Positions 563 through 20,935 of a stretch of DNA of 36,827 nucleotides are shown one piece after another. Under the pieces are notes generated by a model. The model did not search any database and was not told the origin of the DNA. It saw only the letters and a program-made list of their open reading frames with translations. Within the stretch, counting starts at the first letter, position 1, and each line of letters begins with the position of its first letter. The position numbers were made by a program, and so were the translations under genes. This DNA is from Leptolyngbyaceae cyanobacterium M33_DOE_097. Its GTDB lineage: Bacteria; Cyanobacteriota; Cyanobacteriia; Leptolyngbyales; Leptolyngbyaceae. The stretch is taken from positions 1-36,827 of the forward strand of contig DVDV01000183.1 of the NCBI GenBank assembly GCA_015296075.1, given 5' to 3'.

Positions 563-602
563 AATGTTGAGTCAGCTTACGCTACGCCTCAATCTCAACA
601 TT
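563..602. repeat. Inverted repeat at the convergent gene ends
   Basis: AATGTTGAG (563-571) and CTCAACATT (594-602) are a perfect 9-bp inverted repeat with a 22-base loop. The right arm lies inside the last codons of the FHA-reductase gene, so its stop codon sits in the loop. It may help end transcription between the convergent genes, but no T-run follows on either strand. Confidence 0.4.
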
Positions 603-2135
603 CTCGTTAGGACAAGCGACACAGGCCAAAACATAGCCAGCTTCTTGATCGGCCGCACTCAATGCAGCCGGTGGGGAATCGTAGTGAACCTGTCCTTGCC
701 GAAGTTGAATTTTACAAGCGCCGCAAACACCAGCCCGACACGCGTAGCGAATTTGAATACCTGCTTGCTCAGCCGCTTCTAGGATAGAGCAGCCGGGATC
801 TACCGGAACCTGTTGCCCCGACTTGGCAAAGTGGATGAGCGATCGCGTCGGCACCACCGTTGATTTTGCAGAAGCATCCGTTGCAATCTCCAGCGCATGA
901 CCATTCATTACCTGAGTGGTTGGCTCAACATCCCGGCTCAACGTCTTGGTGAGTGGCGTTACCCCTGCCGTCGTCTTCACAGGAAACGGTTTCGCAAAAG
1001 TGCGCCCAAAACTCTCCTCTTTATAATTTTGCATCGGAAACTTCAAGCTTTCCAGAGACGCCCGCACCGATCGCATAAACGGTTCAGGCCCACAGACAAA
1101 AACCGCTCGCTCCAGCAAATCAGGCGTAATCAGGTTAAGCATTGCCGCCGAGATTCGCCCTGTAAGACCCATCCAGGGACGTCCTAAAGCCTGCTGAGTC
1201 GTCGTAATCGCCAGATGAAAATTAGGCATTTGGCTCGCGATCGCCTCCAACTCTCGCTGAAAGATCACATCATTTGACGTTCGCGCACTATGTAAAAAGA
1301 CAACATCACAGTCCATCAGCGAATCCTGTATCCACCGCGTCATCGACATCATCGGCGTTATTCCGCTCCCAGCTGAGATGAGCAGCAGCTTTTTAGGCAG
1401 CTCTGGCAAACAGGTGAAGTTTCCCATTGGGCCGCCCACCAATTTAACGCGATCGCCCACCTGAAGATGGTCATGCAACCAATTAGACACCAGACCTGGC
1501 GGGCATTCCGGTTGGTCATTAGAGCCATGTACCCGCTTTACCGTCAGACTTAGATGATAGGGACGCGTGGGCGAAGACGAAATAGAGTACGATCGCGTGA
1601 CGGTTTGGCCATCAATTTCAAGTTCTAAATTGACAAATTGACCTGGAAGATAACTAAATACGAGCGTTGGCTCCGCCACAAAGTAAAACGTCTTAACATC
1701 CCACGTCTCATCAATGATGCGGCAGCAGCGGCAGTAAACATCCTCTCCAGCCCAAATCTTCTCAGGGCGTGACCAGGTTTGATGTTGATTTATCTCCTCC
1801 GCAGGCGCACAAGGAGGGGCAATCAGCCCTTCCACATACAAAAACGTTTCACCCAGTTGCAGCAAATCCCCTGGATGCAGAGGACAGCGATCATTCATGG
1901 TAATTCGCTTGCCATTCAGCAAAGAACCCGAAGTGCTACCCACATCCACAAAATGGTAACTGCCATTGGTATACACAATTTGGCCATGCGTGCGGCTCAC
2001 TTCGGGATTAGGTAGCACTAAATCACACGTTGCACTACGCCCAATCATCCATTCCGCTTGTCCAGGATAGGATTGCTTTAACTGATGATTTTGAATTTGT
2101 TGTTGCTCAAAATTAACCGACTTGAGAATCAACAT
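582..2135 (-). CDS. FHA domain - flavodehydrogenase - [2Fe-2S] ferredoxin fusion protein
   Basis: A predicted soluble electron-transfer protein taking electrons from NAD(P)H through flavin to a plant-type [2Fe-2S] centre. Domains in order: an FHA phosphothreonine-binding domain at about 1-100 (IGRSATCD, SRTH, GSTSGS, NGK motifs); a ferredoxin-NADP reductase-type FAD domain with RSYSISSSP; a nucleotide domain with LLISAGSGITPMMS; and a C-terminal ferredoxin with Cys-x4-Cys-x2-Cys (CRAGVCGAC) plus a fourth Cys in VLACVACP. The reductase plus ferredoxin part resembles Hcr and phenol-hydroxylase-type reductases; the FHA head is the unusual addition. I prefer ATG 2135 to ATG 2147 because GGAG lies six bases before it, whereas the longer start has no Shine-Dalgarno sequence. 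It follows the polyferredoxin gene by a short gap, so the two are probably co-transcribed and exchange electrons. The terminal acceptor is unknown. Confidence 0.88.
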   Translation of the reverse strand: MLILKSVNFEQQQIQNHQLKQSYPGQAEWMIGRSATCDLVLPNPEVSRTHGQIVYTNGSYHFVDVGSTSGSLLNGKRITMNDRCPLHPGDLLQLGETFLYVEGLIAPPCAPAEEINQHQTWSRPEKIWAGEDVYCRCCRIIDETWDVKTFYFVAEPTLVFSYLPGQFVNLELEIDGQTVTRSYSISSSPTRPYHLSLTVKRVHGSNDQPECPPGLVSNWLHDHLQVGDRVKLVGGPMGNFTCLPELPKKLLLISAGSGITPMMSMTRWIQDSLMDCDVVFLHSARTSNDVIFQRELEAIASQMPNFHLAITTTQQALGRPWMGLTGRISAAMLNLITPDLLERAVFVCGPEPFMRSVRASLESLKFPMQNYKEESFGRTFAKPFPVKTTAGVTPLTKTLSRDVEPTTQVMNGHALEIATDASAKSTVVPTRSLIHFAKSGQQVPVDPGCSILEAAEQAGIQIRYACRAGVCGACKIQLRQGQVHYDSPPAALSAADQEAGYVLACVACPNENVEIEA

Positions 2136-2171
2136 AGCCAGCTCCATTGAAGGTGTGAAAGAGTTTAATTT

Positions 2172-3872
2172 TTAGCGAGACACCGATTTTCTAGAAGACC
2201 GAACCAGCGTCACAGCCTGAGTCACCGCATCATGAATATGCCCAGGTACTGGTCGATTGCGAGTAGGCAACAGCAACTCAGGATGACTCGCCGCGATCGC
2301 CTCCAGGGTGGTGAAATGATCCTGATCCTGAAGTTGTAAATCTTGGCGCAATCGTCGGCAAAACTCAAAACTACCCGGCACATCGATCGCCTGTTGTTGC
2401 AACAAATCCAGCAAGATTCCGGTATAAGCCTGAATCCGAATTTTCTGAGAAACCCCTCTAAGCACTTTCGTCAGAATATAGATTTCATTTGGAGATAGTT
2501 CATTCAGATTGCGTCCTTCCAATAACTCTGGATCAATTGGCAACGTCTGAAGTTGTTTCCGCAGACTGATTGCCACATTTTCACGCTCATAATCTGCCCG
2601 TGTGCGACGCAACGTCCGGTAAAACCACACCGAACCCACCAGCACAATCGCGGCATTAAAACCCAACAGAGGGTAAAGCGGCAAACGGTTCAGCGAAGGA
2701 CGCGCCCCATAGGAGAAGAAAGTCCAAAAAGATGTCAGAGTAAACACAGTGAAGACAAGATGCTGAGCCTGTTCAGCCGAAACCGGACGACCCTGCCAAC
2801 GTACATATTTACGACACAATTTTTCAGCAATCAATCCCAAACTGAAAGTGATTGCAACCAAAACTCCAAACGTGATATACACCGCGATCGCTTTAGGAAT
2901 TGGAATTGCCCGACCATAAATGTAGAACCCTGTATCCAGCACATTAGCAACCTGATCAGCCTCATGCGTCCAGGTTCCCGTAAAGTAATAATCCCAATTG
3001 CCAGAGTACAGAAAGTAATAGAGATAAAAGGCAATTACCATGCCCAAATAGCCATACTGCACCAACCGACGACCCGGCTTATTCAGTTCGGCCCAGTAGT
3101 TTTTTTCCGCATCAATATCAACGCAGACCGCTCGACAACCGACACAGGCACTCCGCTCCTCCCCTGTGTTCGAATCGACCATGCGACACATCGATTGTGG
3201 AGTCGGTGATTGCTCCTGATAATTTTTACTACCCAACAGCGATCGCGGCCCTGTATAGACCAGTTGCACTGGCGACATCGGGCAGAAGTAGTGGCACCAG
3301 CTCTTTCCAGCGTAGAGGTAGCCAACCAAAATGGCACAGAAAATTGTCGCAATCAAGAAACCACCCAAAAAGAGGCGATCGGAATTAATGTACAAAATCC
3401 GAATCCCCAGCCCCAACACAAAGAACCCAAACTGGAGATAAAGATGATAACGCCCCAGCCAAGAGTCTTCAGCGATCGCCACCAACTCATAGCGCGTCTC
3501 ACCCGTCACAGCATCCGTCACCCGTCGTCGCCGTTGGATACCAAGCGCACGGGGAACTTGCGACAGAAACGATAGCGGGCAAATGCGTCGCCAAAATTCA
3601 TGTCCGAACGTCATCAAGATAAAGATGCCCGCCGGGACAATCATCGCCCACCAGATCAAAGCACTCATTGAAAACGGGGTTTGAGACAGGCATGTCTCTC
3701 GAACTTTAATGCATTTATTGAGATCGACTCGAAACGGACTCGCTAAATTGTCAGGTTGCGTCCATAGTGGTGTAATCGGGTCATAGAAAAGAGAAGCGAT
3801 CAAGACCAACCAGCCAAGCACCAATATCCAGCGAATGCGGTGCATCGTCTTTTCTGAAACTCTGTTCAGCAT
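2172..3872 (-). CDS. NapH/NosR-like 4Fe-4S polyferredoxin membrane protein
   Basis: A 566-aa integral membrane protein with about eight hydrophobic segments in the first 420 residues. Cys motifs resemble NapH/NosR/FixG-type electron-transfer proteins: RRICPLSF, then WCHYFCPMSP (Cys-x3-Cys-Pro), then a single cluster motif made of CRM and CVGCRAVC. The first CP motif lacks the second Cys of the usual CxxxCP. The C-terminal 140 residues are soluble, helical and unrecognised. The ATG is preceded by AGGAGGT (about 3880-3886), the strongest ribosome-binding site I noticed in the window. The FHA-reductase follows 24 bases downstream, suggesting a two-gene unit that moves electrons from NAD(P)H into or across the membrane. 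The family assignment is good; the electron acceptor and reaction are inference. Confidence 0.8.
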   Translation of the reverse strand: MLNRVSEKTMHRIRWILVLGWLVLIASLFYDPITPLWTQPDNLASPFRVDLNKCIKVRETCLSQTPFSMSALIWWAMIVPAGIFILMTFGHEFWRRICPLSFLSQVPRALGIQRRRRVTDAVTGETRYELVAIAEDSWLGRYHLYLQFGFFVLGLGIRILYINSDRLFLGGFLIATIFCAILVGYLYAGKSWCHYFCPMSPVQLVYTGPRSLLGSKNYQEQSPTPQSMCRMVDSNTGEERSACVGCRAVCVDIDAEKNYWAELNKPGRRLVQYGYLGMVIAFYLYYFLYSGNWDYYFTGTWTHEADQVANVLDTGFYIYGRAIPIPKAIAVYITFGVLVAITFSLGLIAEKLCRKYVRWQGRPVSAEQAQHLVFTVFTLTSFWTFFSYGARPSLNRLPLYPLLGFNAAIVLVGSVWFYRTLRRTRADYERENVAISLRKQLQTLPIDPELLEGRNLNELSPNEIYILTKVLRGVSQKIRIQAYTGILLDLLQQQAIDVPGSFEFCRRLRQDLQLQDQDHFTTLEAIAASHPELLLPTRNRPVPGHIHDAVTQAVTLVRSSRKSVSR

Positions 3873-3951
3873 CTAATTTACCTCCTAAAAAGACTAAAAT
3901 TTAGTGAACAAGAAATATGCCACTCCGACTCTTAGCCATTCGTCCTAAGTA

Positions 3952-4035
3952 ATTCGCAAACAAATAAGATCCCAGTGATAGAGCCTTCTGTAGTAGGGGA
4001 TCGGCATGCCAAACCCCTAACAATGAGATGACATT
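3952..4035. repeat. Dispersed repeat with central palindrome, copy 1
   Basis: This stretch matches 36614-36696 in the same orientation at roughly 84 percent identity by eye. Its centre (3994-4019) is a near-perfect palindrome, TAGGGG, spacer, GGCATGCC, spacer, CCCCTA. It lies downstream of the kinase gene and upstream of the polyferredoxin gene, so it could also act as a terminator hairpin. Confidence 0.75.
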
Positions 4036-4065
4036 CACCTGCAAATCCTTAACAACTCACAAGCA

Positions 4066-6018
4066 TCAAAAACCAGCCATATTGAGTTGCCAGACTCGCA
4101 AGCGTTGATCGTCGCCCCAGCTAGCCAGGTAACGATGGTCTGGACTCAGAGCCACATTCAGGTTTTTCCCAAGTTGTTTGCTTTCTCGCATCACCAGTTT
4201 TTGGGATTTATAACTCCAAACGCGCAGGCTACCGTCATCGTGAACCGTGATGATATGTTGACCACAAGCAGAAGCCGTCACCGGGTTTGCAGCCCCTTTA
4301 GGAAAAACATGAATCAGCTTTTTTTGCTTCAGATCCCATGCAAAATTATGATCTTTGCCAAAGCTAAGTAAGCGTTGGTCTTTGACCATTTGCAAACCAA
4401 TTATTTCATCAGTATGTCCCGTAAACGTTTGTTCTTGCTCACCTGTTCTCAAGTCCCAAACATGCAGTTGGCGATCGCTGCTAGCACTGACCAAGTGGTA
4501 AGACAAATCCCCATACGTCACAGCAATCACTTCTGTATTCGGCAGACTCAGCTTCTTTACTGGCCTGTCGTGATAGATGTTCCATTGAAACAACTCTCCA
4601 TTTTGCGAGCCACTGATAAACGTGCGAGCATCAGGGCTAATTGCGATCGCAGCAACCGCTTGCTGATGCCCCTTCAACTTTCGCATCAACTTTCCAGTCT
4701 TGATATTCCATAAGTGAATGCTTCCATCCTCACTACCACTAATCAACAACTGATTGTCTGCGCTAATAACTAACGTTGTAATTTCAGTCGTATGTCCCAT
4801 TAACGAATGCAGCAATTTGCCATCGGGCAACGACCACAGGTAAAGCGCATGATTAGCCTCCGCTGTGACCAATAACTGACCATTAGGTGCAATTAACATA
4901 CGCTGCACCTGCGACTGACGAGGCACTTCCTTTAGCAACGTCAGATTCACCGAAGAACCCTGAACCTGTTGTCGCAAGTGAAATGCAGTTTGCTCTACTC
5001 GCATTGCAAAAGCCAAGAAATAGGGCTTTCCCAGCCACCCAATTAAGCTCGCAACTAAAGTGAGCAGAGCAACCTGCGCTGCTTTTTTCTGCCAGAGAGA
5101 TCGTTGCGCCTGCTGGTGAAAGCGCTTAACAAGCCCTAACGTTTGCATATCCGCTAAAACGTCAGTTGCTTGCTGGTAGCGATCGCGAAAATCTCCCCGC
5201 ACCATACGATTCAAAACCTCAACCAGCCCTGAATTTAGCCTGGTATCCGATAGATATCGTTGCCAATCCAGTTCTCCAGAAATCGGATCTCTTTGATATT
5301 GTTTGGGATCAACTCCCGTTAATAGGTGAATGATTAGAATGCCCAGCGCATAAATATCACTATTTAAGCGGGGTGTATTTGCGTGTTGCTCCTCTGGCAT
5401 ATAGCCCGGAGTACCGATCGCCAACCCTAAATGGTCAGCTTCAGATGAATGAACAGAGTCAGTCTCTTGCAGAATGCAAGCCGCACCAAAATCAATCAAA
5501 ACCGCCTTACCATCCTGATAACGGCAAATCACATTACTCGGCGTCAGATCACGGTGAATTACCCCATGAGCGTGAATCAAGTCAAGCATGGACAGCAACT
5601 CTAGCAGCAGTGCGATCGCTTCTTCAACCGATAACCTTTGTCTTCTCGCTAACCTGGCACTTAGATTTTCTCCATCAATATATTCCTGAACTAAGTAGAC
5701 AAGATCCGGTTCATGGCAGTAAGCCAGCAATGTTGGAATCTGGGTGTACTGTCGCCCCAAACGTTCCAGCAGGTATGCCTCCATTTCAAACAGACTTTGT
5801 GCTGTTTCCAAAGGAATTGGATTGTTGTCATGCAGTTTAAGGCATTTGACAACACACAACGGGTAGTCAGGTAAAAACTTGTCACGAGCCAGATAAGTCT
5901 CGCTAAAGCCACCCGCACCCAGTCGCTCTAAGATGAGGTAGCGTGCAGCTAATAGTTGCCCAATCATGTCAACGTCAATCTCTTTAGAAGCAGTATCCAG
6001 TCTAGGCTGTACAAACAT
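4066..6018 (-). CDS. Membrane-anchored Ser/Thr protein kinase with C-terminal WD40 repeats
   Basis: A Hanks-type kinase that would phosphorylate Ser/Thr on partner proteins. The kinase domain spans about residues 20-290: glycine loop LGAGGFSET, ATP-anchoring Lys in VVKCL, catalytic loop HRDLTPSN, metal-binding DFG and GTPGYMPEEQ. The usual Lys after HRDL is Thr. One transmembrane helix (about 318-338, ALLTLVASLIGWLG) follows, then seven WD40-like repeats (LYLWSLPDG, IHLWNIKTG, LFQWNIYHD, LHVWDLRTG, FAWDLKQKK, LRVWSYKSQ, LRVWQL), enough for one beta propeller used for protein docking. The frame begins with GTG 6021, but ATG 6018 with AAGGGG before it is likelier. It is on the same strand as, and upstream of, the FHA-containing redox operon; FHA domains bind phosphothreonine, so that operon is a candidate target. 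Substrates are unknown. Confidence 0.92.
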   Translation of the reverse strand: MFVQPRLDTASKEIDVDMIGQLLAARYLILERLGAGGFSETYLARDKFLPDYPLCVVKCLKLHDNNPIPLETAQSLFEMEAYLLERLGRQYTQIPTLLAYCHEPDLVYLVQEYIDGENLSARLARRQRLSVEEAIALLLELLSMLDLIHAHGVIHRDLTPSNVICRYQDGKAVLIDFGAACILQETDSVHSSEADHLGLAIGTPGYMPEEQHANTPRLNSDIYALGILIIHLLTGVDPKQYQRDPISGELDWQRYLSDTRLNSGLVEVLNRMVRGDFRDRYQQATDVLADMQTLGLVKRFHQQAQRSLWQKKAAQVALLTLVASLIGWLGKPYFLAFAMRVEQTAFHLRQQVQGSSVNLTLLKEVPRQSQVQRMLIAPNGQLLVTAEANHALYLWSLPDGKLLHSLMGHTTEITTLVISADNQLLISGSEDGSIHLWNIKTGKLMRKLKGHQQAVAAIAISPDARTFISGSQNGELFQWNIYHDRPVKKLSLPNTEVIAVTYGDLSYHLVSASSDRQLHVWDLRTGEQEQTFTGHTDEIIGLQMVKDQRLLSFGKDHNFAWDLKQKKLIHVFPKGAANPVTASACGQHIITVHDDGSLRVWSYKSQKLVMRESKQLGKNLNVALSPDHRYLASWGDDQRLRVWQLNMAGF

Positions 6019-6667
6019 CACCCCTTGCGAGCCACCCAGTTTGAGGACTGTAATATGGCAAACCGATACCTAAAACCATCCACTCACCCCCTCAAAAAGG
6101 CGTAGACAGAAAATGGTTTGATCAAGCGAGGTTATGCAACCAACTCAGGGAAATATTTGATAACTCTGCGATCGCAACGAGGCTAAGGGGTAAGGATTGG
6201 TAGAGGCACAGCCCCAAACAGCACTCGCACAATGGGCGATCGCAACGTGTAGAAATTGAAATCTTCGGCTAGGTGGCTAATGCAGTTAATTAGATGGTAG
6301 ATGAAACCGAATGGAACACTGACCTTGTTGAGACTCAAATCACTTTTCAAAATCAGTGAACCAATCATTGAGCATCAAAGTCTAACAAGTGGATAAGCTG
6401 AATAATTGAATTATGTGGCAGAAATTACAGTTACACCCAAATTAGACAGACACTGATGTAGATTATCCTGAACCATCAGAAAGATGATAACAATTTGTGA
6501 CAGAACTCGACTAAAACACAAAATTCCGTAGTCTAAGGCTACTTGAAGCAGCTACAACACAGGTACATCAGCAGTTTTAGCATTGTTGAAACTGTCACAC
6601 CACTGTGTTTGAGTTCATAATACACTCCTTGCAGCACAGTTCAGCATCGCTTGAGTGAGCCAAACCT
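6019..6667. other. Intergenic region upstream of the kinase gene
   Basis: About 650 bases with no credible gene. A 61-codon frame on the minus strand (6183-6368) has no recognisable protein character. The stretch contains two HIP1-type sites and an AT-rich part near 6360-6620. It probably holds the kinase promoter, but I could not pick one -35/-10 pair with confidence. Confidence 0.4.
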
Positions 6668-7540
6668 TTACTCAAAGTTGCTCTCAGGCATAGCGATAGA
6701 AGTTGGAGCAGGCTCTAGAGTATCCATCGACGGCTCCACCGCTGGTAAATCAGCTGTCGCAATTTGCAGAAGTTGAGCATCTGGCTCATAAAGCTTGATC
6801 ATAGCTTGCTGCAATAACTCCTGCACCCGCAAACTATGAAACATTGGCGAGGTTTCAAGCGCCTTAACAGCGTCGATCGCCGCCTGCCAATCTCCTTTTT
6901 TATTGGCCATAATCGCCTGGTTCAGAATTTGGGCCTGCTGATTCCAGTTTTGCTGGAGCTGATTAGCGCGACGATAAAGCGGGCTACTCACAGGAATCGC
7001 CTTCAGCAAAGCAACCGCCTTGGTCACATTAGCCTGTTGGCACTCATTCGTGGCCTGTCGCAGCAACTCTCGCGACCAATCATCTTGTAATTGTTGAGCC
7101 ATTGCAAAGTGTCGGCTATTACTGGGAATGCCAGCCACAATCCGGATTGCTTCAGTCAATTGATTTTGACTCGCCAACGTTTGAGACTGGGTTAAAGCAT
7201 CCTCATAAACAGCCTCCATATGTTTAGGTAGAGCGGCGGGGCGATCGCTCCACAGCAGCTCAGCAATTGGCTCCGGGTTTGTATCTTTAACAAGTTGTGG
7301 AGTCGTCAGTGGCGAACCCGTTGCATCAGGAACTTTTGTTGAGATTTGAGTGTCACCACTGGTAGGTTGCGATACTACTGCCTGCTGCCACCGATAAACT
7401 CCAACGGTAGAGCAAAGAATCACCCCTCCACTAAGAATCAGTTTTAGATTTGCCAGCTGGCGCAGCGGTAAGCATTGGAAAACTCCTACAGGAGGTGTCA
7501 TTTCCGCAGGGGGAAATGATTGCATTATCAGGTTACTCAT
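6668..7540 (-). CDS. Membrane-anchored helical repeat protein of unknown function
   Basis: A 290-aa protein with one hydrophobic helix at about 33-52 (LILSGGVILCSTVGVY) after a short cytoplasmic head, then a Pro/Thr-rich linker and a helical region (about 110-250). The helical part contains related units of the type AI-x-I-x-SP...A..L...W, for example IPVSSPLYRRANQLQQNW, which suggests TPR-like or Sel1-like packing. The tail is acidic. No catalytic motif is visible. Proteins of this shape often sit near cyanobacterial Ser/Thr kinases, and the kinase gene lies downstream on the same strand, but the gap is about 650 bases so they need not be co-transcribed. No good ribosome-binding site precedes the ATG. 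A scaffold role is a guess. Confidence 0.7.
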   Translation of the reverse strand: MSNLIMQSFPPAEMTPPVGVFQCLPLRQLANLKLILSGGVILCSTVGVYRWQQAVVSQPTSGDTQISTKVPDATGSPLTTPQLVKDTNPEPIAELLWSDRPAALPKHMEAVYEDALTQSQTLASQNQLTEAIRIVAGIPSNSRHFAMAQQLQDDWSRELLRQATNECQQANVTKAVALLKAIPVSSPLYRRANQLQQNWNQQAQILNQAIMANKKGDWQAAIDAVKALETSPMFHSLRVQELLQQAMIKLYEPDAQLLQIATADLPAVEPSMDTLEPAPTSIAMPESNFE

Positions 7541-8347
7541 AACTAAAGCTTGTGAAGGTCAATCAGAGCAAATTTCAGCAAATGTTAGACAAATGCAGAA
7601 CAGTACGAAAAATAAAACACTACCTCACCCAAACTTTTGTCTGACTCAATTTTTCTGTAGGGCACCTAGCTGGCTACAGTAGGACAGTGAAGGACAAGAT
7701 ATTGATCAGGGGTGTCCAATAACTTTTCTGTCTACTGAAGTAAACAACCATAAGATTTTATTTATTTCTCTCATTGCTAACAAAAAGAGTTAACTCCTGC
7801 ATTCCCTAAAGACCAAAAATTCCCTTCTAGCACACCTATTGTAGAGATTAACAACCAACCAAATAATTCACTGAATCAGGTCAAAAATAAGTTGACTTCT
7901 GGTGAAAATGCGATAGTTTAGATCAAACGAACTTGCGATCGCCAAGTTAGAACAGTTCATAAACTGGTTCAGCGATCTCGACATTGCCAGCGTTGTGTTA
8001 TATCTTTTCTGTCATTGGCTAGGTGCTCTGCCTGTAGAATTTTTTGGATAGTATTGGCTATTTGCAGTTCGTGATCCCATTCATATTGAAGCGTTAGAAA
8101 ATCGTGTGTACTGTTGCGATAGCTTTCGTTTCTCCCTGTTCAAACTGTCATTATTTGGAGTGTCCTGAAAGCAATCTCAACTAAACTGTGAGAGCAACTT
8201 TTCGCTCCAAAAAAGCATTTATCGCTTTCCCCGTCACTTATCAAAGATTGCCATCAAGCGATCAATAACGCAGCAACGTCATTGGAGTAGGCAGTTGCTA
8301 AGCGCTGGGTGCATCGATCGCAACCTGATTCAAGTGAGACGATCGTT
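7541..8347. other. Divergent intergenic region
   Basis: About 800 bases between genes transcribed away from each other. No coding frame of interest is visible on either strand. It is AT-rich at 7600-7900 and has HIP1-type sites near 7937 and 7972. It should contain the promoters for the helical repeat protein (leftward) and the secretion genes (rightward). No RNA gene was recognised. Confidence 0.4.
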
Positions 8348-9130
8348 ATGAGTAGCTGTTTAAAGATCGGGCATCGTTTACTCGATGGTGCTCAGATTAT
8401 TGCGGCCTTAGTGCAATATCAACTTCTAGACTCATTAGTTGAGCAGATGTTGCTAGATGAGGCGATTAAAGATATCCCCTTGACGAAACAAGAAGCTGCA
8501 ACACGATTGTTAGGGGTAACAGACAGCCTGGAACTTGACGATATCGATAATGCTCTGGCTGAATGGTGTGAAGCGAGAGGAGTGACACCAGAGTACTTTA
8601 AAGGTGTTGTTTTGCGTGAATTGCGAGTACAAAAATTTAAGCAATTAAATTTTGCGACCAAAGTCAAATCAGAGTTCTTGCGAGCCAAGTCAGACTTTGA
8701 TCACGTCGAGTATTCTTGCATTCAAGTTGCAGATTCGTCATTCGCGCATGAACTTTATTATCAGCTTCGAGATGATGGGGCAGACTTCGCTCAATTAGCG
8801 CGGCAACACTCATTAGGAAGCGAGAAAGAGAGTGACGGTTGGGTGGGGCCAGTGCCATGCTCAAGCTTACCCGAAGCGATCGCCACTCTCTTTCACAGCA
8901 AGCCTACAGGTGTTGTTTTGGGGCCAATTCTGGTTGCAGAACGATTTTGGCTAGTGCGTTTAGAGCAATTTAATGCTGCCCGATTAACCGAAGCAACCCG
9001 CACTCAATTGATCCAACAGATGTTTGATCAGTGGCTTAAATCCCAGGCTCAAGCCGTGATCAACACCCCTGGCATGATTGCCGTGCAAACAAATCAAGCA
9101 GAATCAACCCCCATCGCAGCAAACCATTAA
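8348..9130 (+). CDS. Parvulin-type peptidylprolyl isomerase (PpiC/SurA-like)
   Basis: A predicted foldase that isomerises X-Pro bonds. The C-terminal half (about 130-225 of 260 residues) is a parvulin domain: YSCIQVADS, FAQLARQHSLGSEKESDGWVGPV, then GVVLGPILVAERFWLVRLEQ. The N-terminal half is helical, as in SurA-like proteins. No signal peptide is visible, so it may act in the cytoplasm on cargo before export. The frame is open from GTG 8309, but ATG 8348 begins the compact sequence MSSCLKIGHRLLDGAQ and is preferred. It is the first gene of a plus-strand group with the type I secretion ABC protein (30 bases on) and adaptor, which suggests it assists RTX export. The role in export is inferred from context. 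Confidence 0.85.
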   Translation: MSSCLKIGHRLLDGAQIIAALVQYQLLDSLVEQMLLDEAIKDIPLTKQEAATRLLGVTDSLELDDIDNALAEWCEARGVTPEYFKGVVLRELRVQKFKQLNFATKVKSEFLRAKSDFDHVEYSCIQVADSSFAHELYYQLRDDGADFAQLARQHSLGSEKESDGWVGPVPCSSLPEAIATLFHSKPTGVVLGPILVAERFWLVRLEQFNAARLTEATRTQLIQQMFDQWLKSQAQAVINTPGMIAVQTNQAESTPIAANH

Positions 9131-9160
9131 CCTTTTCACAATACGCGAGGCATGTGAGAC

Positions 9161-12100
9161 ATGATGCATGAAGATGCAGCCATACAGCCAGCCGTGTCAA
9201 CTTTTTTTGAATCATGGCTATTTCAGCCTCTCCCAGAGTCCGTCAAAAGAGCGATCGCGCCCAAGCTAGAGGTTTGCTCCTTTCAACCCGGCGAACTGCT
9301 CAACCCTGCAAAAGGGCTACCCTTAGCTGTCCATTATGTGATGCAAGGGCAAGTTCGAATTTTGGGGCCAGTGAGTCACCAAAGCCCCACCTTAGAAATT
9401 GTTGGAAAAGGCGCAATTATCGGCTGGGAAGCGCTATTAAGGCGAGTTAGCACAGGTTCTGTCCGTGCAGCACTCAGCCCTCAAGCAACCGACTGCGAAG
9501 TCACAACCCTTGCCTTACCCGCCGATGAGTTTGAGTACCTGGCATTTCACTATCTATCGCCCGTCCTAGCCCAACAGATAAGCCTGCTTGAGATCTTCGA
9601 TACCCTTTCGCAGGGTCTTAGTTCCATGGGCGATCGCATTCCACTCGTTGATCTCAAACAAGTCGCTCAGTACCTCAAGCAAGAGCAGTTAGTCACCGTC
9701 CAACACTGGAGCAACCTTCAGCCTCATCAAGCAACTGCTCAGCTTCCTTCTGAGCAAATCTGGTTCCTGAGTGGGGGGGAATATCTCAATTATCCAATTG
9801 GAACCGTCCTGACTACCTCTGCCCAATCGCAGCTCAAGCAACTACGTCCTTCGCAGTTTCCGATCCGCCTGATAGGAATTGAGCGAAATTGTCTCGCATC
9901 CATCTTAAAAAACCCCTCCATCGCCAACACCATCTCCCCTACTAAATCCGCCGCTGAGCCAAAAACATCCCCCCCTCCGAGCCAGCTACCGCCCCCTTCC
10001 TACTCCATCTGGCGATCGCCCACTCCTGACTTACTAGAAGACATCATTGCCTGCTTTGGCATGATCTGCGATCGCCTGCAAGTGCCCTATCGCCCCGATT
10101 CACTGCGCAAGCTACTAGCAAAGCAGAACATTGATCGATTTGAACCCGTTGACTTGTGTTTGCGAATTGCCCAAGCAATTGGGTTAAACGCCTATATCCT
10201 CCCCTTCACGCCTACCAGCGGCGGCATTAATCGATTGCCAACCCCCGTTCTCATCCAGTGCAGCCACATCTTTGCAGTTTTGCACGATATCACCTCAACA
10301 ACCGCTGTCCTGGGTTCTCCACGTACCGGACTATTGCGCCTGGACGCGTCAGAATTAGCCGCTCACCTGATGCCAGAGCCAGCTAAGCGGAGCGATCGCG
10401 AGAATTCGTGTCGGGCGATCGTGATCGAGCGACTCCCCAGCACTCCCACAAAGCGGTTTGGGTTTCACTGGTTTCTACCAATGGTGATCAAACAGCGAGG
10501 CATCTTAGTGCAAGTATTGCTTGCCTCAATTGTGATCCAACTCTTAGGAGTCGCCAACCCGCTTTTAGTGCAGCAGGTGATTGACAACGTTATCATCAGC
10601 GCCAATGCTGGCGCAATGACAATGTTTGGTTCCTTAATGGTCATCTTTGCCCTGCTAGAAGGTATCTTAACCATCCTGCGAACCTATCTACTCATTGGTA
10701 CAACCAATCGCATCGATTTACATCTCGGTATCGAAATCGTTCGCCATCTGCTTCATTTACCACTTAACTTCTTTGAAAAACGTCCTGTTGGAGAATTATC
10801 CAGCCGTTTACAAGAACTAGAGAACATCCGCCAATTCATGACTGATACCGCCATTACAACCGTAATGGATGTTATTTTTTCCTTGTTCTATATTGGTGTC
10901 ATGTTCCTCTACAGCTCCCGCTTAACCCTGTGTGTGTTAGCAACCATTCCCGTGATTATTTTGTCAATGCTAGTCATGTCAGGCATTCAACAAAAAATGA
11001 TCCGTGTTAAAGCCGACCAGGGGGCACAAGTTCAGTCCTATCTAGTGGAAGTCCTCAGCGGCATTTCTTCAGTCAAATCCCAACACATTGAAACCTTAGT
11101 GGAAGCAACCTGGCGCGATCGCTATGTCCGTTACTTAAGTAGCGGATTCACCACCTCCACAACCAACGCCCTGTTTTACTCTTACAGCCAATTTCTCAAC
11201 ACCTTAAGTAGCTTATTGGTGCTGTGGATTGGCGCAGAAACCGTTTTAAAGGGCGAGTTAACCCTAGGTGGTTTAATTGCCTTTCGCATCTTAACAGGCT
11301 ACGTCACAGGCCCTTTACTGCGCTTAGCCCGACTTTGGCAACGCTTTCAAGAAACCTCCCTGTCAATGGATCTCCTGGCTGATATTGCCGACTCCCCCGC
11401 AGAAGCAGAACTTTCTCAAGCAAAGGTTGGCTTGCAGTTACCAGAAATTGTGGGGCGAGTTCAATATCAAGGCGTGAGTTTTGCCTTTAACCCCGGCAAA
11501 CTTCAACTCTCTAACGTCGATCTGGATATTGCACCCGGCACCTTTGTTGGCATCGTCGGCCAAAGCGGTTCCGGCAAAAGCACCTTGATGAAACTGTTGC
11601 CGCGCCTCTACTTGCCACAATCCGGCAAAATCTCAATTGATGGTTACGATGTACATCGGGTTGACCTCAACTCCTTGCGATCTCAAATTGGCATCGTGTC
11701 TCAAGACACAATCCTATTTCAAGGCACCATTCGCGACAACATTGCGCTATTTTCAGACCTATCTGATGATGCCGTCATCCATGCTGCTCGCATCGCCGCC
11801 GCTCACGACTTCATCATGCAACTGCCCGAAGGCTACAATACCCAGGTAGGCGAACGAGGCAGTAATCTATCAGGTGGTCAACGACAACGAATTGCGATCG
11901 CGCGCACCATTATTCGCAATCCACGCTTGCTGATCTTTGACGAAGCCACCAGCGCACTCGATTATGAGACAGAGCGCCAGGTTTGCACCAATCTGATGCA
12001 GCATTTTCATGACCGAACCTGTTTCTTTATTACCCATCGGCTTAATACAATCGCACGGGCTGACTGGATTTTGTTTATGCAAACGGGTGTGATTGCTGAG

Positions 12101-12178
12101 CAGGGAACACATGAAGAACTAATTTCACGTCGGCAACTCTACTACTGCTTGCACGCTCAACAATCACAAGAAACGTAG
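9161..12178 (+). CDS. Type I secretion ABC transporter with cNMP-binding-like and degenerate C39 domains
   Basis: An inner-membrane ATPase/permease of the HlyB type that would drive unfolded RTX proteins out of the cell together with the adjacent HlyD-like adaptor and an outer-membrane TolC encoded elsewhere. Domains: cyclic-nucleotide-binding-like fold (about 30-165), Pro/Ser-rich linker, C39-like domain (about 285-410), six-helix membrane domain (about 440-720) and ATPase (about 760-1000). The ATPase has Walker A GQSGSGKST, signature LSGGQRQR, Walker B LLIFDEATSALD and switch His in THRL. In the C39-like part the catalytic Cys position reads DIIAC rather than DCGxAC, while a His remains in SHIFAVLHD. 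It is therefore probably a non-cleaving docking domain, as in HlyB, fitting RTX cargo. At 1005 residues it is longer than the usual 700 because of the N-terminal domain. Two ATGs in tandem start the gene. Confidence 0.95.
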   Translation: MMHEDAAIQPAVSTFFESWLFQPLPESVKRAIAPKLEVCSFQPGELLNPAKGLPLAVHYVMQGQVRILGPVSHQSPTLEIVGKGAIIGWEALLRRVSTGSVRAALSPQATDCEVTTLALPADEFEYLAFHYLSPVLAQQISLLEIFDTLSQGLSSMGDRIPLVDLKQVAQYLKQEQLVTVQHWSNLQPHQATAQLPSEQIWFLSGGEYLNYPIGTVLTTSAQSQLKQLRPSQFPIRLIGIERNCLASILKNPSIANTISPTKSAAEPKTSPPPSQLPPPSYSIWRSPTPDLLEDIIACFGMICDRLQVPYRPDSLRKLLAKQNIDRFEPVDLCLRIAQAIGLNAYILPFTPTSGGINRLPTPVLIQCSHIFAVLHDITSTTAVLGSPRTGLLRLDASELAAHLMPEPAKRSDRENSCRAIVIERLPSTPTKRFGFHWFLPMVIKQRGILVQVLLASIVIQLLGVANPLLVQQVIDNVIISANAGAMTMFGSLMVIFALLEGILTILRTYLLIGTTNRIDLHLGIEIVRHLLHLPLNFFEKRPVGELSSRLQELENIRQFMTDTAITTVMDVIFSLFYIGVMFLYSSRLTLCVLATIPVIILSMLVMSGIQQKMIRVKADQGAQVQSYLVEVLSGISSVKSQHIETLVEATWRDRYVRYLSSGFTTSTTNALFYSYSQFLNTLSSLLVLWIGAETVLKGELTLGGLIAFRILTGYVTGPLLRLARLWQRFQETSLSMDLLADIADSPAEAELSQAKVGLQLPEIVGRVQYQGVSFAFNPGKLQLSNVDLDIAPGTFVGIVGQSGSGKSTLMKLLPRLYLPQSGKISIDGYDVHRVDLNSLRSQIGIVSQDTILFQGTIRDNIALFSDLSDDAVIHAARIAAAHDFIMQLPEGYNTQVGERGSNLSGGQRQRIAIARTIIRNPRLLIFDEATSALDYETERQVCTNLMQHFHDRTCFFITHRLNTIARADWILFMQTGVIAEQGTHEELISRRQLYYCLHAQQSQET

Positions 12179-12237
12179 TGTAGTTGATCCTTATCGTTAT
12201 ACATTTCTGTATTCACACCCCTACTTAGGAAAAAATC

Positions 12238-13707
12238 ATGCATCGTCAAGAGCCACTATCTCCACTCAAACGGTTACAACTGCGTTACCGCAAAAGCCTC
12301 AAAAAAATTGAAGACAACCTGGAAATGAAAGCCACTGGCTTACCCCCTGTTGCCAATTGGTCAGGTCGCATCACCCAAGTCATTTTGATTGGAATTGCCG
12401 TCGGCGTAGGCTGGTCAGTAGTCGCGCGGGTTGATGTCGTTGTGAATACTAGCGGTAAACTAGAACCCGAATCTCAATCCCAAACCATCCAGTCAAAAAC
12501 AGGCGGAACCGTCACTGCCATTTTAGTCCAAGAAGGTGAGCAGGTTAAACAGGGGCAGCTTTTGGTACAACTGGATCGAACCTCTCTACTCAACCGATTA
12601 CGCCAACTTCTCTTGCAGAGAAATCGTTTGATTCAAGAAATTGCTATACTCCGAACGGCACGTCAGGGCAAATTCCTCAACAATCTGGATGCCAACGTGA
12701 AACTTTCGCCAGAGCTACTAAACCAGGTTCAGACTCGCCTACTTCTGATCGCCCAACTAACTGGAAACTCAAACAATCTAGACGCAGAGCAACAACAGCG
12801 CTTTCGGCTATATCAACAACAGTTAGGCGATCGCCGATCGCTGACTACCCTGCAATCATCCAACATTCAATCACAAATTGCAGAAGCCGATGCCCAAATT
12901 GCTCAAACGACCTTTCAGCTTCAAACAGAGCGAGAACTTCTGGCAAAATTACAACCGCTTGTCAAACAAGGCGCAATTCCTCGGATCAATCTTTTGCAGC
13001 GCCAAGTCAGTGTCAGCGAGTTAGAAAAACAATTAACTCAAAACCATCTCCAAAAGCAACGCCTTAAGTTAGGTCAAATTCAAACTCAGGTAGAAGAGGC
13101 CAAGCTGCAAAACGATAATCAGCAGGACTTACAACGGCAACTCGCAGAGCTAGACGCCAAGTTTGACAATACCATTAAAGAGAGTCAAAGGCAGTTGATC
13201 GAGGTCAATTCTCAATTGAATCAGGTTCAGTTTGACCTTAAGAGCCAGGATTTACGTGCCCCTGTGGACGGAGTGGTGTTTGAGCTAAAACCAAAGTTAC
13301 CCGGTATTGTCGCCCAACCAGGGCAAACCCTGCTTCAGATCGTGCCCAACGACTCCTTAATTGCGCGTGTCCAGGTAGCAAACGCCGACATCGCCAATAT
13401 TCGTCCAGGAATGCCCGTTGACATTCGCGTAGATGCCTATCCATTTACTGAATTTGGTTCTATTAAAGGCACCGTTTCAAAAGTTGGCGGTGAAGCAATT
13501 CAAACAACCGAGCAGAATAACAGCACCACGTTTTTCCCTGTTGAAGTTCATCTCGATCGCCAGTTCTTAGAGCGAAAAACGGAGCGATTTACCCTCACAC
13601 CAGGAATGCGAATCAGCACCATCATTAAAGTTCGACAGCGTGCCCCAATCACCTACGTAACCGAAGAAATCACAAAAGCCTTCGACGGCATTCAATCTGT
13701 TCGTTAA
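12238..13707 (+). CDS. HlyD-family membrane fusion protein of type I secretion
   Basis: The periplasmic adaptor of the secretion system, 489 aa. A short cytoplasmic N-terminus leads to one transmembrane helix (about 42-62, ITQVILIGIAVGVGWSVVA), a split lipoyl/barrel-sandwich part (GKLEPESQSQTIQSKTGG, EGEQVKQGQLLVQLD; later LRAPVDGVVFELKPKLPG), a long coiled coil (about 115-335, Gln/Leu-rich) and a beta barrel (VQVANADIANIRPGMPVDIRVDA region). AGGA (12227-12230) sits seven bases before the ATG. It follows the ABC gene by 59 bases on the same strand, so PPIase, ABC and adaptor probably form one operon. Length and layout are normal for HlyD. Confidence 0.94.
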   Translation: MHRQEPLSPLKRLQLRYRKSLKKIEDNLEMKATGLPPVANWSGRITQVILIGIAVGVGWSVVARVDVVVNTSGKLEPESQSQTIQSKTGGTVTAILVQEGEQVKQGQLLVQLDRTSLLNRLRQLLLQRNRLIQEIAILRTARQGKFLNNLDANVKLSPELLNQVQTRLLLIAQLTGNSNNLDAEQQQRFRLYQQQLGDRRSLTTLQSSNIQSQIAEADAQIAQTTFQLQTERELLAKLQPLVKQGAIPRINLLQRQVSVSELEKQLTQNHLQKQRLKLGQIQTQVEEAKLQNDNQQDLQRQLAELDAKFDNTIKESQRQLIEVNSQLNQVQFDLKSQDLRAPVDGVVFELKPKLPGIVAQPGQTLLQIVPNDSLIARVQVANADIANIRPGMPVDIRVDAYPFTEFGSIKGTVSKVGGEAIQTTEQNNSTTFFPVEVHLDRQFLERKTERFTLTPGMRISTIIKVRQRAPITYVTEEITKAFDGIQSVR

Positions 13708-13731
13708 TCATCACCTATTCCAACATCCAGA

Positions 13732-13749
13732 ATGCATTCGTAAATGCAT
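13732..13749 (+). terminator. Possible weak terminator after the secretion operon
   Basis: ATGCATT (13732-13738) and AATGCAT (13743-13749) form a 7-bp hairpin with a 4-base loop, followed by CAATTTTCTTA. It lies 25 bases after the adaptor stop codon. The stem is AT-rich, so termination would be weak. Confidence 0.4.
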
Positions 13750-14221
13750 CAATTTTCTTATGTCAGAATACAGATATAAGATCTATTGCAGTTAGTATTT
13801 ACACTTTTACGAAATATAATCTGCAAGACGGTTCAATCCAAACAAAAAGATAATTTTAATACTAATTGAATGAGTTTAATTTAAGAAAAAGATATAAAAG
13901 CTTGCCATATTTTGAAATTTTGTTATAGTCTATATAGGTAACATTGACACTTCAAATTTTAGCGTTGAAGTTACTCCAAAAGGTTCTAAATACCAGCAGA
14001 TTAATTGAGTGATGGTTCCCTTATTTCCGCTGATTAGTCTGCGCGATCGCAGGTATTTGTTTCAAGTTTTTATCGTTCTGATCCATCCGTTTGAGTAACC
14101 TCATCGTTTCAGCGTTTGATTTTCACCCACTTAAATAACTTCTTGAAAGCGTTGAATTCGATTCGCATTCAAATCTCAGCAAGAAGTTACCCTTTGCATT
14201 TTTCTTACCAAGGAGACTCTC
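13750..14221 (+). promoter_or_regulatory. AT-rich leader region of the RTX-CHRD gene
   Basis: About 470 non-coding bases, strongly AT-rich from 13750 to 13960. An inverted repeat ACTTCAA/TTGAAGT (13949-13955, 13965-13971) overlaps a TTGACA at 13944-13949, with no matching -10 box at the usual distance. A second loose dyad (GCAGATTAA around 13997 and ATTAGTCTGC near 14033) follows. A good ribosome-binding site AAGGAG (14210-14215) precedes the next gene by six bases. This suggests the RTX-CHRD gene has its own, possibly regulated, promoter. Confidence 0.45.
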
Positions 14222-15583
14222 ATGGAAGGAATTGATCCTAAGAATTCATCTGGGCAAACTGCGACCAGTATTGCCGATCCACTACTTTCCACTAACCACG
14301 CTGGTACAACCCATAACCATTCAATTGGTTCTGACCCTGAAGAAGCCGCGCTCGAAAAAGCCCTAATCCAGTCCCTTGCCCCCGATGAGCATGACCATGC
14401 CCCCCCAGTAAACAACCGACCCGAATTGCATATTTCACTCGATCAAGTCGATGGTGCTAAAACCCTTGATCCTAAAAAGATAGGCCGCGACACCTCACTC
14501 AAAGACAATTTAGGTCGCAAAGGTGACATTCTCAACGGGCGCGGCGGTGACAACGTTATTATCGGTTCAGGAGACAGCGACATTATCCGAGCTGCTGGAG
14601 GTGGATTTAACACCATCACCACTGGCACGGGCAGAGACACCGTTATTTTAGGCCGAGAAACCACCAACCGCATTTTTGACTTTGACCCCACAAATGATCG
14701 TCTCTTACTAGGAGGTGGTCTAAATCCCAAAAACATCGTCATTGCTCAAGGTAAAAACCCTGGTAAGGGTGGGTTAGACCAGCCCCTGGATGCGACCAGC
14801 AATACATTAGTCATCGACAAAAAAACAGGTCATATTCTGGCAGCGCTGACCTTTGTAAAAGCGTCTGACATCACCGAAAAAAACTTTGCACGCCTGACCC
14901 CTGAAGCCAATCGCAGCATCCAAGGGAAGGAACTTGGGTTAAAAACACAACGAGGGAATGGACAACTGACTGGAACAAACGGTCGCGATCGCCTGATTGG
15001 TGGCGATGGTAACGACTTCCTGTACGTGGGTGATGGCGGTTTTAAGTTCAACACAGCTACAGGTGGCGGTGGAACAGAGTTTCCTTTTCCAACCACCAGT
15101 CCTGGCAGTTCTGAGATGAAGGTTCAGCTCAAAGGCGGCGTACTTCAACTGGATGGAACCTACAAGAACTTTGATGGATTTCCCCTGTTTAGTCAGGGTG
15201 AGAAGACCATCGACCCCAATGCCACGATTTTGAATGGCTCAAACCCACAAGCACTCGTTGAAGGGTTCTTAAGAGTTCCCAAAGATGTTGAAGGGAATCC
15301 TATCTCTGGAACTCACGTACACTTCAGCCCTGCGGGTGACAGCCGAGGCAATTTCGCAGATGCAACCGTAGTGCGATTTTTAGAAAACACACCAACAGAC
15401 GCAAAATCCGGCACTCTCAAAGGAGAGTTTGAACTAACACCCGCTGAACAAGCTGCCCTGCTTGCCGGAAACTTCTACATCAACATTCACACAAACCTTG
15501 ATGGAGATGGAGATGGTATTGCAGGTTACCCCACAGGTGAAAACCGGATTAACCTCAACCGCAACGTGGTGAGTTTCACATAA
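14222..15583 (+). CDS. RTX Ca-binding exoprotein with C-terminal CHRD domain
   Basis: A 453-aa secreted protein, the nearest candidate cargo of the upstream type I system. There is no Sec signal peptide. Two short clusters of haemolysin-type Ca-binding nonapeptides occur, at about 105-145 (NGRGGDNVIIGSGDSDII, TGTGRDTVILG) and 248-272 (TNGRDRLIGGDGNDFLYVGDGG). The C-terminal 155 residues match a CHRD (chordin-like) domain: LKGGVLQLDG, GTHVHFSPAG, LTPAEQAALLAGNFYINIHT. An acidic loop (DGDGDGIAG) near the end may bind calcium. CHRD domains are beta-rich modules of unclear biochemical role in bacteria, so no enzyme activity is claimed. The start is fixed by AAGGAG six bases before ATG. An intrinsic terminator follows at 15650. 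Confidence 0.88.
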   Translation: MEGIDPKNSSGQTATSIADPLLSTNHAGTTHNHSIGSDPEEAALEKALIQSLAPDEHDHAPPVNNRPELHISLDQVDGAKTLDPKKIGRDTSLKDNLGRKGDILNGRGGDNVIIGSGDSDIIRAAGGGFNTITTGTGRDTVILGRETTNRIFDFDPTNDRLLLGGGLNPKNIVIAQGKNPGKGGLDQPLDATSNTLVIDKKTGHILAALTFVKASDITEKNFARLTPEANRSIQGKELGLKTQRGNGQLTGTNGRDRLIGGDGNDFLYVGDGGFKFNTATGGGGTEFPFPTTSPGSSEMKVQLKGGVLQLDGTYKNFDGFPLFSQGEKTIDPNATILNGSNPQALVEGFLRVPKDVEGNPISGTHVHFSPAGDSRGNFADATVVRFLENTPTDAKSGTLKGEFELTPAEQAALLAGNFYINIHTNLDGDGDGIAGYPTGENRINLNRNVVSFT

Positions 15584-15649
15584 CTCAACTGCAAAAGCCT
15601 AATCAAAACTGGCTTTTCTAATGTTTTGCTCTATCTACGTACTCGTCAG

Positions 15650-15680
15650 AGGGACGTTATTTTTAGCGTCCCTTTCTTCT
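15650..15680 (+). terminator. Rho-independent terminator after the RTX-CHRD gene
   Basis: AGGGACG (15650-15656) pairs with CGTCCCT (15667-15673); including one G-U pair the stem reaches ten pairs around a TTTT loop. A T-rich tract (TTTCTTCT) follows. This is a classical intrinsic terminator 66 bases after the stop codon. Confidence 0.85.
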
Positions 15681-15708
15681 ACAACTTACCGAACCTGGAT
15701 GGAATAGA

Positions 15709-16248
15709 ATGATGCGCTATCTCAAATACTTTTTAGTTGCTATTGCTGCCTTACTACCATTCAGTCTGGTGGTAAAGTCACAAATTATTCCTGCTAGGTT
15801 ATCTACTGCACCACCCAAAGCGATCGCCCGTCAAGCCTCAGCCAATGCACCTAGCAGTCAATTGACTGTACAGGATGGTATTTATTATTTCACAATTACA
15901 TTACCCAAACAATCTGCGCAGCGATTTGCGAAATTGTCTTTTTCCTTTACTGACGAAACAAAAAGTAATGGGTTAGCTGCTGTCCAGTTCGACCTGACCG
16001 CGACAAAAGGCTTTCTGGGTGCCCCTGGTTTAGGTGGGCAAGAAATCGCGATCGAGCAAGTGTGGATCGACGAAACAGGCATTCTTTGGGTGAGTTTGAA
16101 CCCGACCCTTTCCGCTGGAACAAACTTTACGATCGCACTCAAAGCCAAACCAGCTAGCCTGGGCGCTGAGTATGGGTATGGCATAGCCGCTTATCCTGAA
16201 GCTCAAAATCAAAGCCCCATTCTGGTTGGCAACGGCATCTTCAAATAA
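15709..16248 (+). CDS. DUF2808 family exported protein
   Basis: A 179-aa protein with a Sec-type signal peptide (MMRYLKYFLVAIAALLPFSLVV, cleavage probably near residue 25) and a DUF2808 domain for the rest. Recognisable pieces are YYFTITLPKQSAQRFAKLSF, a central GFLG segment, IWVSLNPTLSAGTNFTIALK and YGIAAYPEAQN. This family is typical of cyanobacteria and of unknown function, probably periplasmic or cell-surface. It differs from its RTX neighbours in using the Sec route. It lies between a terminator and a convergent RTX gene, so it is likely a single-gene unit. Two ATG codons in tandem (15709, 15712) mark the start. Confidence 0.85.
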   Translation: MMRYLKYFLVAIAALLPFSLVVKSQIIPARLSTAPPKAIARQASANAPSSQLTVQDGIYYFTITLPKQSAQRFAKLSFSFTDETKSNGLAAVQFDLTATKGFLGAPGLGGQEIAIEQVWIDETGILWVSLNPTLSAGTNFTIALKAKPASLGAEYGYGIAAYPEAQNQSPILVGNGIFK

Positions 16249-20648: not shown

Positions 20649-20878
20649 ACTTTCAGAAATCTTCGATAAGAAGTTTATAAATAGCGTCTTCAGATTCTCA
20701 TCTGTTGATTAAGAAGAGTCTATTAATTATCGAAGAGTTGATTTAGATAGCCTTAAGAAGCAATAAATTAAAACTATTCAGATATATGTTTTCTATATTT
20801 CAGACATAATTTCAAGTTTTCCAAAAATCATTTATTCCTTACATATAAAAGAAAGTTAAATGTATCCGACCCTTAAAG
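20649..20878 (-). promoter_or_regulatory. AT-rich upstream region of the GDPD-RTX gene
   Basis: About 230 AT-rich bases between the GDPD-RTX start and the upstream terminator; the promoter must be here because the terminator separates the two giant genes. One 8-mer on the minus strand (CTTAATCA) fits the cyanobacterial Pho-box unit, but the 11-base-spaced partners that a real Pho box needs are missing. Confidence 0.35.
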
Positions 20879-20910
20879 AAAAAGAGGTGCGATCGCACCT
20901 CTTTTTTTCC
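20879..20910 (-). terminator. Perfect palindromic terminator built on a HIP1 site
   Basis: A 28-bp perfect palindrome (20879-20906) is centred on GCGATCGC, with GAGGT/ACCTC inside and A/T runs outside. Read on the minus strand it sits 30 bases past the stop of the 1938-aa gene and ends in TTTTTCTTT. The symmetrical layout would also work on the plus strand. Confidence 0.88.
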
Positions 20911-20935
20911 TCACGCAGTCACGATTTCAAACCAC

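Follow-up and report, generated by a model that had tools for sequence, protein, structure and literature searches.

A putative phospho-docking module for membrane electron transfer encoded by three neighbouring genes of a Leptolyngbyaceae cyanobacterium

We analysed a 36,827-nucleotide stretch of DNA, contig DVDV01000183.1 of Leptolyngbyaceae cyanobacterium M33_DOE_097 (assembly GCA_015296075.1; hereafter the window), in which three minus-strand genes (582–6021) encode, in the order of transcription, a transmembrane Ser/Thr kinase, an eight-helix membrane iron-sulfur protein to which we give the working name polyFd, and a flavin- and ferredoxin-containing reductase headed by an FHA domain. 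Together the genes probably make up a module for phosphorylation-dependent docking in membrane electron transfer, in which the kinase would mark the tail of polyFd and the reductase would dock there through its FHA domain; this reading is carried by a conserved gene neighbourhood and by a threonine motif in the polyFd tail. The original prediction had proposed an FHA-headed reductase, a membrane partner and a Ser/Thr kinase upstream on the same strand, and domain profiles confirmed all three, with the following features.

4066–6021, minus strand: transmembrane Ser/Thr kinase with a C-terminal WD40 propeller (Pkinase 1.8e-29, plus WD40), with orthologues in 30 nonredundant loci
5281–5934, minus strand: kinase domain, residues 30–247 (profile match)
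5017–5082, minus strand: single predicted transmembrane segment between kinase domain and WD40, about residues 314–335 (hydropathy)
4081–4971, minus strand: WD40 propeller of the kinase, about residues 351–647 (profile match)
2172–3872, minus strand: membrane iron-sulfur protein polyFd, 566 residues (weak Fer4_5 match; eight transmembrane helices in the AlphaFold model; seven cysteines invariant over 78 relatives)
3123–3296, minus strand: polyFd cysteine region C193–C250, predicted cytoplasmic, which with C98 holds the presumed Fe-S cluster ligands (invariant cysteines; topology prediction)
2271–2600, minus strand: C-terminal helical domain of polyFd, about residues 425–534 (AlphaFold model; common to all relatives)
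2175–2261, minus strand: disordered C-terminal tail of polyFd, residues 538–566, with a predicted local distance difference test score (pLDDT) of about 33
2199–2234, minus strand: conserved Thr doublet HDAVT(551)QAVT(555)LVR, the T555 codon at 2208–2210 and the T551 codon at 2220–2222
582–2147, minus strand: FHA-FAD-NAD-[2Fe-2S] reductase (FHA, FAD_binding_6, NAD_binding_1 and Fer2 profiles)
1851–2051, minus strand: FHA domain, residues 33–99 (E-value 9.4e-18), with R37, S51, R52, H54, an acidic E49, and S73 replacing the usual Asn
1062–1709, minus strand: FAD and NAD(P) binding domains, residues 147–362 (profiles; structural matches)
609–827, minus strand: plant-type [2Fe-2S] ferredoxin domain, residues 441–513 (profile match)

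The closest relatives at this locus are Leptolyngbyaceae. There are 24 bases between the polyFd stop and the start of the reductase open reading frame and 193 bases between the kinase stop and the polyFd start. A scan of genome contigs for polyFd gave 51 loci, and searching the whole genomes of the phylum (244 genomes) and the order (42 genomes) yielded more. Next downstream of the short-tailed polyFds in the window's clade (hereafter class A) comes the FHA-reductase, and a full-length kinase lies upstream on the same strand at 30 nonredundant loci besides the window (30–55% identity to the window kinase; among the paralogous kinases within its own genome the highest values are 37% for a partial match and 46% for a match limited to the kinase domain). 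The order kinase-polyFd-reductase on one strand was found at 30/31 other class A loci with sufficient upstream sequence, so the neighbourhood is real and conserved, and the case that the original prediction had considered fatal, a kinase never present there, is clearly false. Four class A loci had no upstream kinase; three of these end at a contig edge, and the fourth, L025, carries secretion genes instead. An orthologue of the kinase (E-value below 1e-100) occurs in 17/58 relatives, as a single copy in each, and adjoins polyFd in 17/17 (16 adjacencies read from coordinates; the remaining one, G302, fits locus L011). As a kinase gene also lies within 6.5 kb of 32/41 short polyFds with an FHA-reductase neighbour, versus 1/64 other polyFd loci, chance falls far short of explaining the three-gene arrangement. 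Another polyFd clade has a WD40 kinase of a different lineage (GGGGMGDVFLATD, DLKPxNIFLVPT), which sits immediately downstream of the FHA-reductase in L044, L234 and L237; in L048 and L053 it is no more than 6 kb from polyFd. Since a second, different lineage adjoins the reductase, at least two separate events of origin or exchange lie behind the linkage of kinase and reductase.

The original prediction had tentatively placed a phosphothreonine on an unrecognised C-terminal tail of the polyferredoxin. This tail proved to have two parts, namely the helical domain common to the relatives and the short disordered end (residues 538–566) with the conserved Thr motif. We could rule out that the tail is merely the shared helical domain, as that domain stops at about residue 534. 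In class A the tail is variable apart from the Thr doublet (T551 in 27/27, T555 in 25/27), which has the consensus T-L-A-[KR]-T-I-A-[KR] and is mostly preceded by an acidic residue; in the window T555 fits this consensus fully. The tail end is longer in other clades and the motif is repeated there, e.g., as DPTIRR, DPTTVVSRR, DPTTVVARR, DPTVVAQR, DATIASR and DPTIVAPR in L047 and as ELTIRRP, ELTMQRP and EKTIQRP in L044.

To count such sites we looked for T-[ILVM] with a Lys or Arg at any of positions +2 to +4, taking shuffled tails and equivalent Ser sites as controls; a stricter expression tried first, [DE].{1,2}T[ILVM].{1,2}[RK], overlooked clear cases such as TLAKTIAK and was dropped, so that the loosening was post hoc. 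Every one of the 44 reductase-linked tails had a Thr site (44/44 versus 12.1 expected from shuffles), with 86 sites in total versus 13.9 expected, and the equivalent Ser sites were depleted (7 versus 14.0 expected) with Thr and Ser equally common. Short tails without a reductase were at chance (2/10 with a site versus 1.8 expected), a difference with a Fisher p of 4e-8, which is overstated because the 44 tails amount to two or three independent observations. The polyFd tree divides the reductase-linked short polyFds among three clades and implies a minimum of two state changes. The motif is also present in L043 and L051, which have no neighbouring reductase, but both genomes encode full-length FHA-reductases elsewhere. 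The polyFd of L051 (4900–7062) has a tail with roughly seven repeats of the ExITMRQ type and two more Thr motifs close to the end, and the FHA-reductases of this genome are on other contigs. FHA domains are described as highly specific for phosphothreonine over phosphoserine (PMC3146460), and because of this preference a Thr-only motif is how an FHA ligand would be expected to look. The placing of a phosphothreonine on the polyFd tail is supported comparatively by this Thr-specific motif in every short polyFd adjoining an FHA-reductase, and the tail sequences fit what this idea predicts with unexpected specificity.

The reductase would be the reader of such a mark. Its FHA domain scored 64.9 bits against profile PF00498 (cut-off 20.7), and across 49 FHA-reductases G36, R37, S51 and H54 never vary and R52 hardly does; the window domain has the phosphate-contacting Gly-Arg and Ser and the structural His. 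In the FHA1 domain of Rad53, R70, S85, N86 and T106 hold the phosphate, R83 holds the Asp at +3, and N107 holds the peptide main chain (PMC5041073). The position of R83 is occupied here by the acidic E49, and is Glu or Asp in 42/44 reductases of the short-polyFd groups, in 1/5 with long polyFds, and in 0/29 other FHA domains of related genomes, a background set biased to the best-scoring domains and in which 12/29 look like one orthologue group. Residue +3 of the tail motif is Lys or Arg at 56/60 class A sites, and the predicted acidic +3 pocket of the FHA domain matches this basic residue. In L159 and L160, where the pocket residue is Gly or Lys, tail +3 is Phe or Tyr, a small and post hoc covariation that gives a hint of the same pairing. 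In the catalytic part the FAD_binding_6, NAD_binding_1 and Fer2 domains are all present, the CxxxxCxxC-type cluster ligands C470, C475, C478 and C509 are invariant, and the protein resembles NqrF, flavohaemoglobin and dioxygenase reductases. Its more likely true start is Met5 (about 2135).

The kinase has the catalytic K59, HRDLTPSN and DFG of a Hanks-type Ser/Thr kinase (PF00069, 103 bits); Met19 (about 5967) is its more likely true start, because orthologues align from residue 17–19. Cyanobacteria have many WD40 kinases, whose substrates are, to our knowledge, mostly unknown. FHA domains often bind autophosphorylated kinases, and we considered whether the FHA domain binds the operon kinase in this state, or another phosphoprotein, so that the kinase both recruits and regulates the reductase and the Thr motif of polyFd has another role. 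The linkage of kinase and FHA-reductase even where polyFd is elsewhere (L234) speaks for this. We searched the juxtamembrane linker of the operon kinases for a conserved T-[ILVM]-x-[KR] site and found none, which led us to reject a docking site in that linker, whereas every reductase-linked polyFd tail has such a site; we consider this explanation unlikely.

Several observations weigh against docking on a phosphorylated tail, besides the few independent origins of the tails and the definition of the tail pattern after inspection. T551 of the window lacks a basic residue at +3. Three loci (L213, L232 and L236) have the reductase and the Thr motif with no kinase nearby, and the operon kinases of L158, L159, L023 and L026 look catalytically degraded, with altered catalytic loops (YQDLKLNH; HRDIKPSH), and are possibly weak or dead. 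The original prediction had named Arg, Ser and Asn as the phosphate-binding residues of the FHA domain and had taken their lack as refuting it, which applies by half: the Arg (R37) and Ser (S51) are invariant, and the Asn is Ser73 here, though in Rad53 this Asn grips the peptide main chain and not the phosphate. The equivalent of N107 is non-Asn in 32/34 class A domains (Asn in 2), and is Asn or Asp in the sister groups and Asn in 29/29 background domains; the peptide grip therefore appears partly altered in exactly the group with the operon kinase, which lowered our confidence, and loss of this Asn may mean a weaker or altered grip.

These last observations would also suit constitutive docking, in which the FHA domain attaches to polyFd, at the tail or on another face, with no need of phosphorylation, class A domains have lost phosphopeptide control, and the kinase acts elsewhere: Ser, Phe or another residue stands at the N107 position in those 32/34 domains, and some operon kinases look degraded. 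However, R37, S51 and R52 are still near invariant, the kinase is strictly co-inherited, and the motif residue is Thr and almost never Ser, which docking without a phosphate would not demand, making this explanation improbable in our view. That the cluster is conserved for separate jobs, with the kinase regulating other neighbours such as a type I secretion cassette and the electron-transfer pair outside its control, we regard as very unlikely. The presence of the cassette, with its SurA-like isomerase and RTX/CHRD protein, near the module at about 8/40 reductase-linked loci speaks for it; against it, most loci lack the cassette with the kinase nearly always present, kinase and polyFd are co-inherited one-to-one, and the Thr motif tracks the FHA-reductase.

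For polyFd, the AlphaFold model (pLDDT 82; predicted template modelling score 0.80) has eight transmembrane helices followed by the helical domain and the disordered end, and charge distribution predicts the N-terminus, the cysteine loop and the C-terminus to be cytoplasmic. The cysteines invariant over 78 relatives are C98, C193, C197, C229, C243, C246 and C250, all on the predicted cytoplasmic side. A further near-invariant pair, C54 and C61 (window 3690–3713; 72/78 each), is in a predicted outside loop and could be a disulfide or redox-active. The window protein scored below the Fer4_5 cut-off (20.5 versus 22 bits), and some relatives scored above it (e.g., L051 with 27 and L059 with 28.1). 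A sequence search of the PDB with the polyFd profile identified no relatives, and a PDB fold search with the model gave no convincing match, the helical C-domain having filled the VIA-align list so that the transmembrane core was barely probed.

Under the favoured reading of tail phosphorylation and FHA docking, the WD40 propeller of the kinase would probably be outside and its kinase domain inside, allowing it to sense an envelope or external signal. Its targets would be T555, and probably T551 too, in polyFd's disordered tail on the cytoplasmic side. The reductase would then bind the phosphothreonine with its FHA head, using R37, S51 and R52 for the phosphate and the acidic E49 for the basic +3 residue, and docking would tether the NAD(P)H-FAD-[2Fe-2S] unit beside the cytoplasmic Fe-S clusters of polyFd. 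From NAD(P)H, electrons would run by way of FAD and [2Fe-2S] into the polyFd clusters, with a quinone or something outside as the final acceptor. The sequences themselves show the gene content, its conserved order, the co-inheritance, a Thr-specific tail motif that goes with the reductase, and phosphate-binding residues that are intact; we infer that the operon kinase phosphorylates the tail, that the FHA domain binds it, that electrons run in this direction to such an acceptor and that phosphorylation gates their flow.

This reading is backed by a precedent for a kinase, a phosphorylated target and an FHA protein: in Agrobacterium type VI secretion PpkA phosphorylates Thr14 of the membrane protein TssL, whereupon Fha is recruited (PMC3953482). 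As there, a Ser/Thr kinase, a membrane protein with a cytoplasmic Thr and an FHA protein that would dock on it are encoded together, and the conserved residues (T551 and T555 of the disordered tail) are in an accessible part predicted to be cytoplasmic. Our locus differs in that the FHA domain belongs to a redox enzyme and in that the membrane protein is an Fe-S electron carrier without homology to TssL. In Mycobacterium tuberculosis the kinase PknF and the transporter Rv1747 form a two-gene operon (PMC3908365), Rv1747 bearing FHA domains (PMC5549992). PknF-Rv1747 and GarA/OdhI share with our locus an FHA-controlled membrane or metabolic function with a kinase adjoining, but their FHA domains are on a transporter or a small regulator, whereas here the domain heads a flavin/ferredoxin reductase.

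The catalytic part of that reductase is of the HCR/GbcB/BenC/NqrF type (the best NCBIfam match, to the glycine betaine monooxygenase reductase GbcB, was 355 bits, below the cut-off of 500), and is similar in structure to NqrF and to flavohaemoglobin reductase domains. It departs from this type in the added N-terminal FHA domain and in having its ferredoxin domain C-terminal after a disordered linker, and instead of an oxygenase it would serve a membrane Fe-S protein. Like the NapH/NosR/CcoG-like membrane ferredoxins (Fer4_5), polyFd has a CxxxCP motif in its transmembrane helices close to the cytoplasmic face, and a loop with a Cys cluster, but its Fer4_5 match is sub-threshold and it has the extra helical domain and a putative regulatory tail. 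In its working, the joining of a regulatory module to a core that transfers electrons in the membrane recalls the EF-hand NADPH oxidases (NOX5/RBOH), and relatives of polyFd carry EF-hands or cyclic nucleotide monophosphate (cNMP)-binding domains; there is no homology, and the polyFd core looks Fe-S and not haem based. Among the full texts searched there was no description of an FHA-bearing ferredoxin reductase or of a polyFd-type membrane protein, and only analogues came up. The kinase/FHA docking theme is known, and what is new is its proposed application to membrane redox.

Upstream of the module the window encodes several further proteins. A 290-residue protein (6668–7540), weakly TPR-like and predicted to have a single hydrophobic stretch at its N-terminus, is near the kinase in 14/40 loci. 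The stretch 8309–16248 holds the type I secretion cassette (SurA-like peptidyl-prolyl isomerase, ABC exporter and HlyD) together with genes for a DUF2808 protein and an RTX/CHRD protein; these recur near the module in L010, L014, L025, L029, L044, L153 and L158–L160 and are essentially never near other polyFds. Beyond it (16368–26752) are two giant RTX phosphatase-like proteins, the first (1426 residues) with GDPD repeats and a phytase-like domain, and the second (1938 residues) with endonuclease/phosphatase, phytase-like, phytase and PhoD domains.

Relatives of polyFd of about 45% identity are longer and vary in their C-terminal domains. The most common addition in the long relatives is a cNMP-binding domain, usually without a reductase nearby, and the window's own genome has one such protein (C239, L177); others carry FHA plus cNMP-binding domains, EF-hands or a [2Fe-2S] ferredoxin domain (exchanged modules were found in L035, L037, L038, L059, L062, L065, L087, L162–L177, L197, L204 and others). 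In Pleionea (L058, 8333–9922) a divergently transcribed reductase lies beside a long polyFd-cNMP protein, and its N-terminal region of about 150 residues is not an FHA domain. Because the relatives carry different C-terminal domains, the phospho-tail branch may represent just one among a set of input modules built onto a shared core. We give about an even chance to the proposal of a membrane Fe-S family with interchangeable input control, by a phosphothreonine tail written by a kinase and read by an FHA domain in one branch, and by cyclic nucleotides, EF-hands or a built-in FHA domain in others.

If phospho-docking is correct, a Ser/Thr kinase would decide the entry of electrons from NAD(P)H into a membrane Fe-S protein, the docking site being part of that protein. 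An unnamed membrane protein family would gain a testable function, and one cyanobacterial WD40 kinase a likely substrate. Should the input modules indeed be interchangeable, membrane electron transfer in cyanobacteria would be gated by phosphorylation here and by cNMP or calcium elsewhere.

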